Below, one piece after another: positions 5,040 to 32,971 of a DNA stretch of 41,232 nucleotides; the stretch's first letter is position 1; each line of letters opens with the position of its first letter. The notes under the pieces were generated by a model. It did no database searches. It was not told where the DNA came from and saw only the letters and a program-made list of their open reading frames with translations. Source of the stretch: a virus; IMG/VR virus record IMGVR_UViG_3300034158_000028, positions 1 through 41,232 of that record; one strand, given 5' to 3'. Made by a program: the position numbers and the translations under genes.

Positions 5040-5055
5040 CTGTATGGATATACAG
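5040..5055. promoter_or_regulatory. LexA (SOS) box
   Basis: CTGTATGGATATACAG, a perfect CTGT-N8-ACAG match to the gamma-proteobacterial LexA consensus with an AT-rich centre. It sits 22 bases before the start codon of the DUF1654 gene, where bound LexA would block transcription. Confidence 0.85.
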
Positions 5056-5077
5056 CATTTAATTGGGAGGGAATTTT

Positions 5078-5389
5078 ATGGCGAAGAAGCAGGTGGCATC
5101 GGCAGCACGACAGGAAATGAGCGGCATGGAGCGGCTGGGGCTGCGCGTCTCATCCATGATTAACCACCCGGTGGCACAGGCTCAGCGCTGGGTGACGATC
5201 CATCGCCTGGACACAGACGGGGATCGGGAGTGGGAAGAGGTTCTGGGCGTGATCGCCGAAACCGACGAGCTTGAGTTGACGCTCAATGACGACGGCAGCG
5301 TGACAGTTAGGTGGGAGCAGCAAGAAGTCGAAGTGGCGGGCAGGGGAGAGGTTGAATTTGAGCAGGAAGAAGAGGCAGCACCTTTCTGA
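5078..5389 (+). CDS. DUF1654-family protein under LexA control
   Basis: A 103-residue protein. The core, from about residue 18 (MERLGLRVSSMINHPVAQAQ, then RWVTIHRLDTDGDREWEEVL and DDGSVTVRWE), matches the DUF1654 family that I know mainly from Pseudomonas chromosomes and prophages. Start: ATG 5078 with GGGAGGGA at good spacing. The C-terminus is Glu-rich. The LexA box just upstream predicts expression during the SOS response, i.e. at prophage induction and independently of CI. The gene is transcribed alone and ends at a pair of terminators. Its molecular function is not established to my knowledge; a link with DNA damage is inferred from the regulation. Confidence 0.85.
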   Translation: MAKKQVASAARQEMSGMERLGLRVSSMINHPVAQAQRWVTIHRLDTDGDREWEEVLGVIAETDELELTLNDDGSVTVRWEQQEVEVAGRGEVEFEQEEEAAPF

Positions 5390-7064: not shown

Positions 7065-7901
7065 TTATACCGGTTGTCCGTTCCACACGTAGAGCACCCG
7101 GGCCAGGATATGTGTGTCATCCACACGGATGTCCTCTGGGTCGTGGTGCTTGTTGTCCGAGATCATCTTGAAGCGGTCCTTACCTTTCTTCTGCAGGCGC
7201 TTCACGTACAGCATTTCGTCGTGGGAAAAGAGGTAGATGCCGTCGCCGGTGAACTCCCGGATCGTGATATCCACGAGCAGGGGGTCGCGATCCTTGATCG
7301 TCGGGGCCATCGACTGACCCCATCCGGTGATCATCTTGAGGTGGAAGTGTTCTTTGAAGGTGACGCCCAGGTCGCGCAGATGCTTGGGGCTGACCCGTAT
7401 ATCCTGGAGCATTTCCGGGTATTCGTGCGGGATCTGTCCGCCGCCCATAGCCGCGCGCACGTCGTAGTGCGCAATCCACACCTCGTCACCAACCTGGCCG
7501 GGGCGAGAGAAGTCGACGGTTATGACGTTACTCGACTCGTCAGCGGCCGCAATAATCCTGTCACGAGCGGTGTTCGATAACCCTTTGACCTTCGAAAGCA
7601 TCTGCTTTATCTGGTCCGCCGCTGTCTGTGCGGATGTCTCGCGTGCGTGATCGCTGGAAGTCAGCTCGTCAGCTGGAGTTATCGACTCACCTGGCGATAC
7701 GGAGTCAAACCAACCTCTGGGCAGCCCCTCGATCGCCTCGATTCTCCGCGCTACGTCGTCTCCCAAATTCTTCGCCGTCTTGTCCGACAAAATCTGACTC
7801 AGGTGTGCAGGCGCCATTCCCCAGCGCTCGGCGCACGCGCCTTTTCGCTGGTTTCCTATGAGGCTGATCAGTTGCTGTTTACGAATCGCATAAATATCCA
7901 T
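7065..7901 (-). CDS. cI: CI-type repressor with S24 peptidase domain
   Basis: A 278-residue lysogeny repressor. Residues about 5-65 form the helix-turn-helix domain (CAERWGMAPAHLSQILSDKT). A linker follows, then the LexA/CI S24 domain with catalytic Ser197 in GWGQSMAPT and Lys234 in YVKRL. The usual Ala-Gly cleavage dipeptide is not obvious: the equivalent stretch around residue 150 reads RAAMGGG, so self-cleavage, if it occurs, would use an Ala-Met or Met-Gly bond. The ATG at 7901 gives the standard family N-terminus (MDIYAIRKQ) but has no clear Shine-Dalgarno; a GTG at 7946 with AAGGA ten bases upstream would add 15 residues and place operator 7921-7937 inside the gene. The gene is divergent from Cro across three operators, as in lambda. 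Confidence 0.93.
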   Translation of the reverse strand: MDIYAIRKQQLISLIGNQRKGACAERWGMAPAHLSQILSDKTAKNLGDDVARRIEAIEGLPRGWFDSVSPGESITPADELTSSDHARETSAQTAADQIKQMLSKVKGLSNTARDRIIAAADESSNVITVDFSRPGQVGDEVWIAHYDVRAAMGGGQIPHEYPEMLQDIRVSPKHLRDLGVTFKEHFHLKMITGWGQSMAPTIKDRDPLLVDITIREFTGDGIYLFSHDEMLYVKRLQKKGKDRFKMISDNKHHDPEDIRVDDTHILARVLYVWNGQPV

Positions 7902-7920
7902 GCGGGCAAGAATGCCAGCG

Positions 7921-7986
7921 TTTAGCTCAATGCTAAATGTGCTCACAGCTAAATATTCCTTGCTACGATATTAGCCATAAGCTAAA
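7921..7986. promoter_or_regulatory. Right operator array OR (three sites)
   Basis: Three 17-bp sites between cI and cro: 7921-7937 (TTTAGC TCAAT GCTAAA, perfect halves), 7937-7953 (ATGTGC TCACA GCTAAA, one good half) and 7970-7986 (ATTAGC CATAA GCTAAA). The last lies between the -35 and -10 of PR. The first, nearest cI, would correspond functionally to lambda OR3. Confidence 0.8.
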
Positions 7987-8013: not shown

Positions 8014-8250
8014 ATGAATGACCATCTGCGTGACTGGCTCGCCAGCGCTTCAAACGAACGGCGCCAGTCAGTGGCTGCCGCTGCCAAGACGACGGTAGGG
8101 CACCTGTGGCAGCTGGCAGGCGGTCACCGAAAAGCCTCGGCCGACCTGGCAGAGCGCCTTCAGGACGCATCAGGTGGAGAGATCACCATCGCAGGTTTGC
8201 GACCGGATCTTCTCGACCTGGCGCACAAAGTCCTACGCGGCGCCGCCTGA
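8014..8250 (+). CDS. cro: Cro-like / YdaS-type HTH regulator
   Basis: A 78-residue DNA-binding protein, first gene of the PR transcript, with AAGGAG before ATG 8014. The segment VAAAAKTTVGHLWQLAGGHR forms the helix-turn-helix, typical of the YdaS/Cro group (transposase-like HTH), followed by a RLQDASGGEITIAGLRPDL tail that such proteins share. It would bind the TTTAGC-N5-GCTAAA operators and oppose CI. The symbol denotes functional position; the protein is not sequence-similar to lambda Cro. Confidence 0.85.
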   Translation: MNDHLRDWLASASNERRQSVAAAAKTTVGHLWQLAGGHRKASADLAERLQDASGGEITIAGLRPDLLDLAHKVLRGAA

Positions 8251-8300: not shown

Positions 8301-8918
8301 ATGCAAACGTCCAGTTCCAGACACACCGTACAAACCCGTGATCAGGTGCTGGTCGCCCACGCTGCAAACCAGATCGCACGCACCAGCTTGAGCCAGGACG
8401 ACTTCGCCCAGGCGTTGAGCCGCGAGCTGCATCTGTCGTGCCCGGAGAAGGCTATCGCCAAAGAGGTGCCGGACTTCGCCGCGCTTACCTTGCAGAACGA
8501 CGTGTCCGACTTTGTGAAGGCGACCGGGCGCTGGCTCAAACGTGTTCAGCGCTGGCTGTCCGGCGATCAGGAAATGCCGTCCTGGCTGGAAGAGTCGTGG
8601 GTGAACGCTCTTGAGCCTGAATTCCGCGACCACTGCTTGAACGAACTGGCGAGCCGCCACGGCTTGACTGGCGCCCGCCAGATGACCAGCGATCAATGCG
8701 CCAACAAGAGTTTCGGCGCGCTGATCCGTGCCCTCGGTGATGTGATCGACACGGGCAGCGAGGTGTTTGACGACCAGGTGATGTGCGAGCAGGACCTGCC
8801 GCACTTGCCGGCGTTCGTTAAACAGTGCCGCCAGGTTGAGGCGAAAGCGGGGGAGTTGGGGCGAAAGGCTGAGCAGTTGATCAAGGACGCACGGCCAAGT
8901 CTGAAATCCATCGCTTGA
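8301..8918 (+). CDS. Phage regulatory protein at CII position (YdaT-like?)
   Basis: A 205-residue helical protein with AGAGAG upstream of ATG 8301. The centre (DFVKATGRWLKRVQRWLSGD, then LEESWVNALEPEFRDHCLNE) resembles the YdaT/CII-like phage proteins that follow a YdaS-type repressor; the C-terminal 60 residues are a charged coil. In lambda this slot encodes CII. A role in the lysis-lysogeny decision or in host growth inhibition is inferred from neighbours. No clear HTH motif can be assigned by eye, and a simple replication accessory role cannot be excluded. Confidence 0.6.
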   Translation: MQTSSSRHTVQTRDQVLVAHAANQIARTSLSQDDFAQALSRELHLSCPEKAIAKEVPDFAALTLQNDVSDFVKATGRWLKRVQRWLSGDQEMPSWLEESWVNALEPEFRDHCLNELASRHGLTGARQMTSDQCANKSFGALIRALGDVIDTGSEVFDDQVMCEQDLPHLPAFVKQCRQVEAKAGELGRKAEQLIKDARPSLKSIA

Positions 8919-8956
8919 AATTTTTTTGGTGTGCGCGGGTTTTTATGCCGCGATTT

Positions 8957-9007
8957 GGGGGCTCGGTGCCTGCACTAGTAAAAGAAGCCCCCGAAAACTC
9001 CAGGCAC
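8957..9007 (+). promoter_or_regulatory. Possible RNA pseudoknot in the antirepressor leader
   Basis: Two 7-bp helices interlock: GGGGGCT (8957-8963) with AGCCCCC (8986-8992), and GTGCCTG (8966-8972) with CAGGCAC (9001-9007). The second helix uses bases in the loop of the first, the order that defines an H-type pseudoknot. It lies between the 205-residue gene and the antirepressor. Predicted by eye only. Confidence 0.4.
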
Positions 9008-9033
9008 AAAAAAGCCACCGGACGAGGGTGGCT
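9008..9033 (-). terminator. Minus-strand terminator in the antirepressor leader
   Basis: On the minus strand: AGCCACC, loop of seven, GGTGGCT followed by T6 (plus-strand A run 9008-9013, arms 9013-9019 and 9027-9033). The T run is on the minus side only, so it ends leftward transcripts and would not efficiently stop the PR mRNA. Confidence 0.7.
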
Positions 9034-9052
9034 GATTCGATAACACTTTGTG
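9008..9052 (-). ncRNA. Predicted antisense RNA opposite the antirepressor leader (sar-like)
   Basis: A sigma-70 promoter at 9059-9086 would start a minus-strand RNA near 9052, and a T6 terminator ends it at about 9008, giving about 45 nt. The RNA would pair with the antirepressor mRNA from the Shine-Dalgarno region (TGAGG, 9051-9055) upstream. P22 sar RNA, known to block antirepressor synthesis, has the same logic. No protein could be encoded. Ends are predicted from sequence, not measured. Confidence 0.6.
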
Positions 9053-9058
9053 AGGCCG

Positions 9059-9086
9059 ATTATATGCAAACCCAGTCACATATCAA
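9059..9086 (-). promoter_or_regulatory. Antisense promoter at the antirepressor start
   Basis: Minus strand TTGATA (plus 9081-9086), 16-base spacer, perfect TATAAT (plus 9059-9064). The -10 overlaps the ATG of the antirepressor. It is the closest match to consensus in the whole immunity region. Confidence 0.65.
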
Positions 9087-9918
9087 TACCCCTACAAATC
9101 TCGCGCCACGTTTTCCGCAATCTGAAAACGTGGCGCGGAATTACTCGGTGATTCCGTTCGACTTTGACGGCGCCGCGATCCGGGTCATCACCGACAAGGC
9201 TGGAGATCCTTGGTTCGTTGCCCGCGATGTTGCCGATGCCCTGGGTTACTCCAAGCCTGAGAACGCCGTGTCCCGTCACTGCAGGGCTGCGACCACTACC
9301 CCGAAACAGGGTGGTGGTTTCATGACCATTATCCCGGAGCGCGACCTGTACCGACTGGTGATGAAGTCGAAGCTGCCGGCCGCCGAGAAATTCGAAGAGT
9401 GGGTGGTGGGCCAGGTACTGCCGAGCATCCGCAAGACCGGCACCTTTTCCACTCAAGGCCCGAACAACTCCAAGATCGTCGGCGAGCTGGCCATTCTGGA
9501 GTGCTTTGACCGCCTGCTGAAGCCCGCACCGTCCAGCAAGATGCTGATGCTGGCCAAGATCGCCGCCAACAACGGTCTGGATGCGAAATTCCTCCCAGGC
9601 TACGCCGTCGACGCCGCTCCAGACGCTGCTGGCGGGTCTTCGATGCCAACCAAGGCAATCACAGCCCTGATCAAAGATCACGGCATTGCCAGCACAGCGC
9701 GCGGCTTCAATCTCGCACTGGAGGCCCACGGCTTCCTCAAGGTCCTCCAGCGCAAAAACTCCAAGCAGGAAATGGTGGACTTCTGGTCTGTGACCGAGAA
9801 GGGCCTAGCCTACGGCAAAAACCTCACCAGCCCTCAATGCCCCCGCGAAACCCAGCCTCACTGGTACGTGGATCGCTTTCTTGAATTGGCCGGCCTTGTC
9901 GGCAAAGGAGCGAAGTAA
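9064..9918 (+). CDS. Bro-N family phage antirepressor
   Basis: A 284-residue antirepressor. Residues about 28-130 are the Bro-N domain (IRVITDKAGDPWFVARDVAD, ALGYSKPENAVSRHC, then LYRLVMKSKLPAAEKFEEWV and VLPSIRKTG). The C-terminal half carries a KilA-C/ANT-like winged region (AITALIKDHGIASTARGFNL, WSVTEKGLAYGK). Such proteins inactivate phage repressors to trigger lytic growth. The ATG at 9064 has TGAGG as ribosome-binding site. Codons 14-25 contain a perfect inverted repeat with 14-base arms. The gene end overlaps the next start (TAATG), linking it to the replication operon. Strong RNA-level control is suggested by the leader structures. Confidence 0.87.
   Translation: MQTQSHINTPTNLAPRFPQSENVARNYSVIPFDFDGAAIRVITDKAGDPWFVARDVADALGYSKPENAVSRHCRAATTTPKQGGGFMTIIPERDLYRLVMKSKLPAAEKFEEWVVGQVLPSIRKTGTFSTQGPNNSKIVGELAILECFDRLLKPAPSSKMLMLAKIAANNGLDAKFLPGYAVDAAPDAAGGSSMPTKAITALIKDHGIASTARGFNLALEAHGFLKVLQRKNSKQEMVDFWSVTEKGLAYGKNLTSPQCPRETQPHWYVDRFLELAGLVGKGAK
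9102..9137. repeat. Perfect 14-bp inverted repeat inside the antirepressor gene
   Basis: Arms CGCGCCACGTTTTC (9102-9115) and GAAAACGTGGCGCG (9124-9137) with an 8-base loop. As RNA this is a very stable hairpin 38 bases after the start codon; as DNA it is a palindrome that a regulator could bind. Confidence 0.85.
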
Positions 9919-14990: not shown

Positions 14991-15326
14991 ATGGAGTATC
15001 TACAGCGCCTGCTCGACAAGATCGACAGGTTCGAATTGCTTATCGCGGGCCTTGTTGGAGCTGTGATCGCCAGTTGGTGGCACAAGGACGACTTGAACGA
15101 CTGGCGTGCCGGGATGATCTTCCTCATCACCGGCATGGCCTGCTCGATCTACCTCACGAGCATGGTCAGTACCTACCTGGGTGTGACAGAGCCGAAGATC
15201 GTCGCCGGCATTGGCTTCCTGCTGGGTGCTTTCGGCGGTTCGCTCCTGGCGGCCATTAATCGAGCCATCAAATCCGCTGACCTCTGGGCGCTTATCCGCC
15301 AGCGGTTCGGGGGAGGCAATCCATGA
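14991..15326 (+). CDS. Putative phage holin/membrane protein, 111 aa
   Basis: A 111-residue protein with GGGAG upstream of ATG 14991. Hydrophobic segments at about 15-30, 40-58 and 70-90 alternate with charged stretches (WWHKDDLNDWRAG), a topology typical of the holin-type proteins encoded before terminase in Pseudomonas siphophages. The stop overlaps the start of a second membrane protein (ATGA), so the two may form a holin/antiholin or membrane-complex pair. No endolysin is visible in the window; it is probably encoded beyond the right edge. Confidence 0.65.
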   Translation: MEYLQRLLDKIDRFELLIAGLVGAVIASWWHKDDLNDWRAGMIFLITGMACSIYLTSMVSTYLGVTEPKIVAGIGFLLGAFGGSLLAAINRAIKSADLWALIRQRFGGGNP

Positions 15327-32206: not shown

Positions 32207-32971
32207 ATGCGCAAGCACATCATTGCGGCTATCCAGGCGCACGCGGCGGCCCAGTATCCGAAAGAATGTTGCGGCCTGCTGCTCGCCACCGGGCGCAAGC
32301 AGAAGTATTACCCGTGCCGGAACATCGCAATGGAGCCGAACGAAGAGTTCCGGCTCGATCCCGAGGACTATGCTGCGGCCGAAGACCTGGGCGAGGTGAT
32401 CGGCATCGTTCATTCACACCCGGACGCCACCAGCAGGCCGTCGCCGCATGACCTTGCCATGTGCGAGGCCACGGCATTGCCCTGGCACATCCTGAGCTGG
32501 CCCGAGGGCGACCTCCGCACGATCACACCGACCGGCCGTACGCCGTTGCTCAAGCGTCCGTTCGTGCACGGCGCCTGGGACTGCTGGCAGGTCTGCGCTG
32601 ACTGGTACCAGCGCGAATGGGGTTTGGCGTTCGACACCTTCCAGCGCGCCGATGGATGGTGGGAGGGCGCCGACAACACCAGCTTGTACGAGGCGAACTA
32701 CGAGGAGGCAGGCTTCGTGCGCGTAGACAGCCCTCAGCGCGGCGACATGATCGTTATGCAGGTCGGGCGCACGGTTCACCCGAACCATGCCGGCATTTAC
32801 CTGGGTACCGATCCGGCGCTACCAGAGGAAGAGTCGGGCACCTTCGGGCCTGGCCCCTTTTTGCTGCACCACCTATACGGCAGGCCGTCCGAGATCATCG
32901 TCTACGGCGGGCCATGGCATGACCGGACACGCCTGATCCTCAGGCAAAAAGAAGCAAAACAACCAACATGA
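32207..32971 (+). CDS. Tail tip protein K: JAMM peptidase plus NlpC/P60
   Basis: A 254-residue two-domain protein like lambda gpK. Residues 1-110 are a Mov34/MPN JAMM metallopeptidase with Glu20 (KECCGLL), His69 and His71 (HSHP), Ser79 and Asp82. Residues 115-245 are an NlpC/P60 domain with Cys126 (WDCWQVC) and His194 (NHAGIYLG). These domains are thought to process tail-tip proteins or open peptidoglycan during DNA entry. All catalytic residues seem intact. ATG 32207 follows the L stop by two bases. The usual next gene (I) is 2.3 kb away because accessory genes are inserted here. Confidence 0.92.
   Translation: MRKHIIAAIQAHAAAQYPKECCGLLLATGRKQKYYPCRNIAMEPNEEFRLDPEDYAAAEDLGEVIGIVHSHPDATSRPSPHDLAMCEATALPWHILSWPEGDLRTITPTGRTPLLKRPFVHGAWDCWQVCADWYQREWGLAFDTFQRADGWWEGADNTSLYEANYEEAGFVRVDSPQRGDMIVMQVGRTVHPNHAGIYLGTDPALPEEESGTFGPGPFLLHHLYGRPSEIIVYGGPWHDRTRLILRQKEAKQPT

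Follow-up and report, generated by a model that had tools for sequence, protein, structure and literature searches.

Many Pseudomonas prophages appear to carry a short oop-type antisense RNA gene at the start of the antirepressor gene

At the start of the antirepressor gene, an antisense RNA of about 44 bases appears to be encoded in many Pseudomonas prophages, as judged from a viral contig of 41,232 nucleotides (IMG/VR record IMGVR_UViG_3300034158_000028, hereafter the window) and its relatives. With a probability of roughly 0.7, we consider this locus to be an oop-type antisense unit (a promoter, an RNA of about 44 nt and an intrinsic terminator), positioned just ahead of the replication operon, between its first gene and a CII-like gene, which would damp the antirepressor. 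A preliminary description of the window had proposed a minus-strand promoter and a terminator opposite the antirepressor leader, and both are indeed present (TTGATA-16-TATAAT, followed by a stem-loop and a U-run at 9013-9008). Rather than being a single case, this locus belongs to a widespread family, represented by 174 distinct leaders.

The window is a temperate phage contig of the Pseudomonas type, and the genome relatives of its antirepressor are nearly all Pseudomonas. The antisense unit has the CII-like gene on one side and the replication genes on the other and would be transcribed in the direction opposite to these, with genes for a DnaT-domain protein and a lambda-P-like protein following 3' of the antirepressor gene (Table 1). 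Within the window alone, the promoter is the sole promoter-like site in 4 kb with 1.1 expected from shuffles, and six terminator-like sites are observed against 4.1 expected, so that neither count by itself is above chance. The significance of these elements thus derives from their head-to-tail arrangement and conservation in relatives, and it is this conservation, not the window sequence alone, that makes the promoter and the terminator convincing. For this comparison, 174 unique leaders were gathered via the antirepressor protein, the DNA repeat adjoining the unit and named phages; they share ancestry, and counts among them do not represent independent events.

Table 1. Coordinates of the antisense unit and neighboring features in the window
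Feature	Position	Strand	Basis
CI repressor gene cI	7065-7946	-	
Cro-like gene	8014-8250		
CII-like regulator gene, upstream of the antisense unit	8301-8918	+	phrog_4834 CII-like transcriptional activator, E 4e-47
Terminator U-run (A6 on the plus strand)	9008-9013	-	U-run of 5 or more in 174/174 relatives
Predicted antisense RNA, 44 nt (ACAAAGUGUUAUCGAAUCAGCCACCCUCGUCCGGUGGCUUUUUU)	9008-9051	-	promoter and terminator; start from lambda OOP spacing (PMC5869508)
Terminator stem-loop (9013-9033), 6-bp core stem, 7-nt loop	9014-9032	-	pairing 100%, covariation in relatives
Probable Shine-Dalgarno GAGG of the antirepressor gene, adjoining the antisense 5' end	9052-9055	+	sequence; inferred
-10 element TATAAT, overlapping A of the antirepressor ATG	9059-9064	-	sequence; class conservation of GATTAT
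Antirepressor gene, N-terminal Bro-N; predicted target, overlaps the antisense promoter	9064-9918	+	Pfam PF02498, E 6e-22; phrog_130 anti-repressor Ant, E 1e-52
-35 element TTGATA, 16 nt from the -10	9081-9086	-	sequence; -35 spacing of 16-17 nt preserved across leader classes
14-bp inverted repeat (arms CGCGCCACGTTTTC), antirepressor codons 13-25	9102-9137		fold z -6.7 as RNA

The window promoter (9086-9059, minus strand) matches the consensus at 11 of 12 positions, and a 16-17 nt spacer, with [CT]ATNNT lying on the start codon of the next gene, is found in 171 of the 174 unique leaders. The best leftward sigma-70 score has a mean of 11.4 in the leaders as compared to 4.0 at 1224 other gene starts of the same contigs, and with a weight matrix drawn from general knowledge of E. 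coli promoters only this comparison of leaders with controls is meaningful. With respect to antisense promoters, 98.9% of leaders score above the 95th percentile of the control starts, only about 1% of which score as high as a typical leader, and the combination of A at -3, T at -2 and a -35 TTG at 17 nt is present in 69.5% of leaders and in none of the 1224 controls. A high-scoring promoter is also retained in 19 leader classes whose spacers share less than 60% identity. In the class to which the window belongs, the six non-coding bases before the ATG (GATTAT, -6 to -1) are invariant (30/30), while the preceding UTR positions vary. When the start reads ATTATATG, the -10 becomes TATAAT through a two-base shift, the leader has one codon less and the spacer stays at 16 nt, a spacing rule broken by two leaders with a 19-nt spacer. 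Many relatives have weaker -10 elements such as CATGAT and CATACT.

As the promoter extends into the antirepressor reading frame, the contribution of the encoded peptide needs to be considered. The TTG of the -35 derives largely from a conserved Asn codon, and the -35 could in part follow from it; upon resampling of synonymous codons with the peptide fixed, the promoter signal was not in significant excess (Fisher p 0.29). Conservation beyond coding constraint, which the preliminary description put forward as a check, applies to the non-coding part of the -10 and to the hairpin, and for the codon-borne -35 it does not reach significance. At the same time, one leader class lacking the conserved Asn carries TGTACA at the same spacing, and in L286, where the hairpin directly precedes a Phage_rep_O gene (PF04492), TTGTCA-17-CATAAT is built from Asp-Lys codons. 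In L241 and L250, where the gene following the hairpin is an unrelated one, a leftward promoter with a strong score of 11.5 lies slightly inside that gene. These cases argue, at the level of sequence, that DNA rather than peptide is kept at the promoter.

All 174 unique leaders contain the hairpin followed by five or more U on the minus strand, as against a plus-strand T-run of at least four in only 50 of them. Among 31 distinct hairpins, the core stems differ widely in sequence and yet pairing is perfect throughout, with 100% of cells paired, 45 of them changed on both sides, and no shuffle out of 500 reaching as high a value. The loop has 7 nt in 162 of the 174 leaders. Loss of the promoter or the terminator in relatives, named in the preliminary description as the outcome that would speak against it, was examined, and both elements were found to be conserved. 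As an observation in its own right, the terminator can be a hairpin of the type GCCGGGGCGCAATCCCGGC or one that is exactly its reverse complement, GCCGGGATTGCGCCCCGGC (compare, e.g., L006 with L065), and this pair looks as if the stem-loop had been inverted.

The predicted RNA had been described as starting near 9052 and ending at 9008 after about 45 nt. Its end is retained, and applying the spacing of lambda OOP, in which the -10 lies 8-13 nt from the RNA 5' end (PMC5869508), places the start at 9051 and gives a length of 44 nt. Such an RNA would not cover the Shine-Dalgarno sequence as claimed before; instead, its predicted 5' end abuts the GAGG, with which the RNA would overlap if transcription began one or two bases earlier. 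In all leader classes the predicted start is at -10 to -13 of the downstream gene, and at about -13 in the window. The fold of 9007-9051 has an energy of -13.5 kcal/mol (z -2.95). The predicted RNA 3' end is located 3' of the upstream stop codon in all 143 assignable leaders, by 10-142 nt, and this distance amounts to 11 nt in 92 of the 143 and to 89 nt in the window. The corresponding gap in the window, between the CII-like gene and the terminator (8919-9007), holds a GGGGGCT...AGCCCCC inverted repeat near 8958-8990. A search of the window against Rfam at the gathering threshold and at E values up to 5 returned nothing credible.

The association of promoter and hairpin was also observed in other samples. 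A fresh genome set yielded 18 hairpin loci, 14 of them new, with the promoter in all, and 19 loci chosen by the hairpin pattern only and having an assignable start all gave promoter scores of at least 9.8, as compared to 1.6-7.1 for five unrelated hairpin loci. The genes upstream of the unit fall into several unrelated groups, and those downstream encode Bro-N, Rha (phiPSA1, PF09669) or KilA-N-like antirepressors, T5orf172 (psageB2), or O-type replication proteins behind a short leader ORF. By sequence comparison, the unit thus persists while both neighboring genes are exchanged. In L105, L279, L293 and L300, the leader ORF, which normally forms the antirepressor N-terminus, stands alone as a frame of 36-41 aa, and in L105 it is immediately followed by a replication gene of the O type.

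By its layout, the nearest known element is the pO-oop-tO of lambda and P22 and not sar. Lambda oop is likewise located between the CII gene and the next gene and reads leftward, and lambda pO, when computed in the same way, is TTGAGT-17-CATAAT with its -10 at -3 to +2 of the O start codon, the same placement as in the Pseudomonas unit. The P22 oop promoter is similarly annotated at 32346-32374 over the ATG of orf48 at 32349. An intrinsic terminator close behind or at the end of cII is common to the Pseudomonas unit and oop (in P22 it is annotated at the end of c1), and in L286 the next gene is Phage_rep_O itself, as O follows lambda oop. The HK022 and D3 stretches offered no usable cII-O junction for this comparison. 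The Pseudomonas unit differs in the length of its predicted RNA (about 44 nt against 77 for lambda OOP) and in having no overlap with the cII 3' end, whereas lambda OOP overlaps it by 52 bases (PMC5869508) and silences cII (PMC5869508). Furthermore, the downstream gene in Pseudomonas is usually an antirepressor, and the RNA would be directed against the region of its ribosome-binding site. A LexA-type site like that of lambda pO (CTGT-N8-ACAG, 0-1 mismatch) was not found within 800 nt of 9008-9086, which speaks against LexA control of the kind known from pO.

The analogy to P22 sar drawn in the preliminary description is sustained as far as a unit opposite the antirepressor leader is concerned. 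P22 sar (Rfam RF00262) is also a short leftward antisense RNA in an antirepressor leader, with its promoter at the 5' end of ant and its terminator in the intercistronic gap, and it represses ant (PMC12197685; precedent also in PMC13397905). In the P22 record, sar occupies 15021-15090 (70 nt) and the ant ATG is at 15091, and hence sar starts at -1 of ant and covers the ribosome-binding region, in contrast to the predicted start at about -13 in the window. In addition, sar belongs to an arc-ant operon and the window unit to a cII-O-type junction, and the Rfam sar covariance model found no match in the window at the gathering threshold or at E<=5, with P22 itself scoring 97.8 bits. Sar can be viewed as a functional analogue by target, and a unit that would work like sar and is built like oop describes the locus better. 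In P1 and P7, too, an antirepressor operon is under antisense control, through the c4 RNA, which is listed with a length of 77 nt and an action in trans (PMC12197685); at the gathering threshold, Rfam gave no match in the window. That the window antirepressor is unrelated to P22 Ant was too strong a statement: the Pfam domains differ (Bro-N versus P22_AR_N) and BLASTP between the two found nothing, but both match the antirepressor family phrog_245. A search of the open-access literature retrieved no report describing oop in phages of Pseudomonas or an antisense RNA directed at an antirepressor from this genus, and the terms antisense, promoter, terminator and antirepressor are absent from the PseuP_222 paper.

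We infer that the oop-type unit would act as follows. Located where the first replication-operon gene has its start codon, the promoter would fire leftward, as lambda pO does over O, and produce a short RNA with a 7-nt-loop hairpin, whose complementarity to the intercistronic leader extends as far as the Shine-Dalgarno sequence. Loop-loop pairing would be followed by duplex formation, and the duplex would hinder 30S binding at the antirepressor start and/or expose the cII-ant message to RNase III. Convergent transcription could additionally interfere with rightward read-through. The outcome would be a low expression of the antirepressor and the early operon, by which lysogeny is shielded from leaky or untimely induction.

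This reading competes with an unlikely though by no means far-fetched one, in which the key product is the convergent promoter and not the RNA, such that polymerase at the start codon blocks or dislodges rightward PR complexes and the terminator only halts the leftward complex before cII. In lambda, convergent pO indeed lowers read-through from pR, and extra oop RNA has little effect on plasmid copy number (PMC3985674). OOP also leaves O-P mRNA stability unchanged (PMC3985674), and hence an effect downstream of the promoter need not be due to RNA pairing. Moreover, the position of the promoter is the most constant feature (171/174), with variation in the RNA sequence and the loop. A 7-nt loop in 162 of the 174 leaders, however, goes beyond the need of a bare terminator, and the RNA ends near the Shine-Dalgarno sequence in all classes (predicted start -10 to -13), both of which favor a role of the antisense RNA. 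It is quite improbable that the hairpin serves chiefly as a rightward early-operon attenuator like tR1 with an incidental leftward promoter. A subset of 29 leaders reads TTTTTCTAC after the stem, giving T5 on the plus strand too, and judging by this sequence the hairpin can be bidirectional in these relatives, but no plus-strand T-run is present in the window (TGATTCG) or in most relatives, loss of the minus-strand U-run was not seen in any leader, and an incidental promoter would not recur in 171 of 174 leaders and in the fresh sets. Sense-strand, i.e., rightward, termination as the main function was rejected on the basis of this asymmetry of the U-runs.

The conserved block might be a recombination linker for swaps of regulatory or antirepressor cassettes, its similarity reflecting exchange and not function, which we regard as highly improbable. 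In its favor, the flanking genes to either side are of several unrelated groups and identity declines at the inverted repeat, but a linker should keep its primary sequence, and here the spacer and the UTR vary while the promoter hexamers, the U-run and the pairing persist. Of slighter probability still is a leftward promoter for repressor establishment, with read-through of the hairpin leading to a long transcript antisense to cII and cro and including cI. The cI gene does lie downstream in the leftward direction, as for lambda pRE, but a terminator with an invariant U-run follows only about 44 nt after the start, and the P22 annotation has a separate pRE upstream of oop.

The inverted repeat next to the promoter usually accompanies the unit, but the sequences compared show that the two can be separated. 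In relatives, it has a 12-bp arm with a fixed 10-nt center and covaries between GCGcCAC/GTGgCGC and GCGaCAC/GTGtCGC, swapping P to T together with A to S in the peptide, and it occurs in perfect form in 43 of 249 Pseudomonas genomes. In this form it is found with no antisense unit nearby in L117, L124, L228, L233, L237, L243, L251, L252, L255, L257 and L261-L263, and the unit is also found with no recognizable inverted repeat; each thus occurs alone, which rules out the repeat as a necessary part of the unit. Possible roles for the repeat are those of an operator, a recombination site or a mobile palindrome. Elsewhere in the window, a perfect LexA-type palindrome (CTGTATGGATATACAG) at 5040-5055, just upstream of the ORF at 5063-5389, suggests that this ORF is an SOS-controlled phage gene.

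The oop arrangement of lambda and P22 would thereby reach into Pseudomonas prophages, in which it lacks annotation and has no Rfam entry, and an antirepressor would be a different target for a unit of this type. A promoter placed on the start codon of the gene that comes first after cII is seen to outlast the exchange of flanking genes across phages, and a general role of pO-type convergent promoters in the lysis-lysogeny choice becomes testable in an easily grown genus using simple reporters. A more speculative and doubtful proposal is that Pseudomonas prophages have redeployed the unit to serve as a private and modular brake for antirepressor cassettes that can be exchanged, in which covarying stems and changing 7-nt loops would give each phage a specificity of its own and a resident RNA could silence the antirepressor of a matching superinfecting phage. 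If true, this would amount to an RNA-based immunity code like c4 of P1 and P7.
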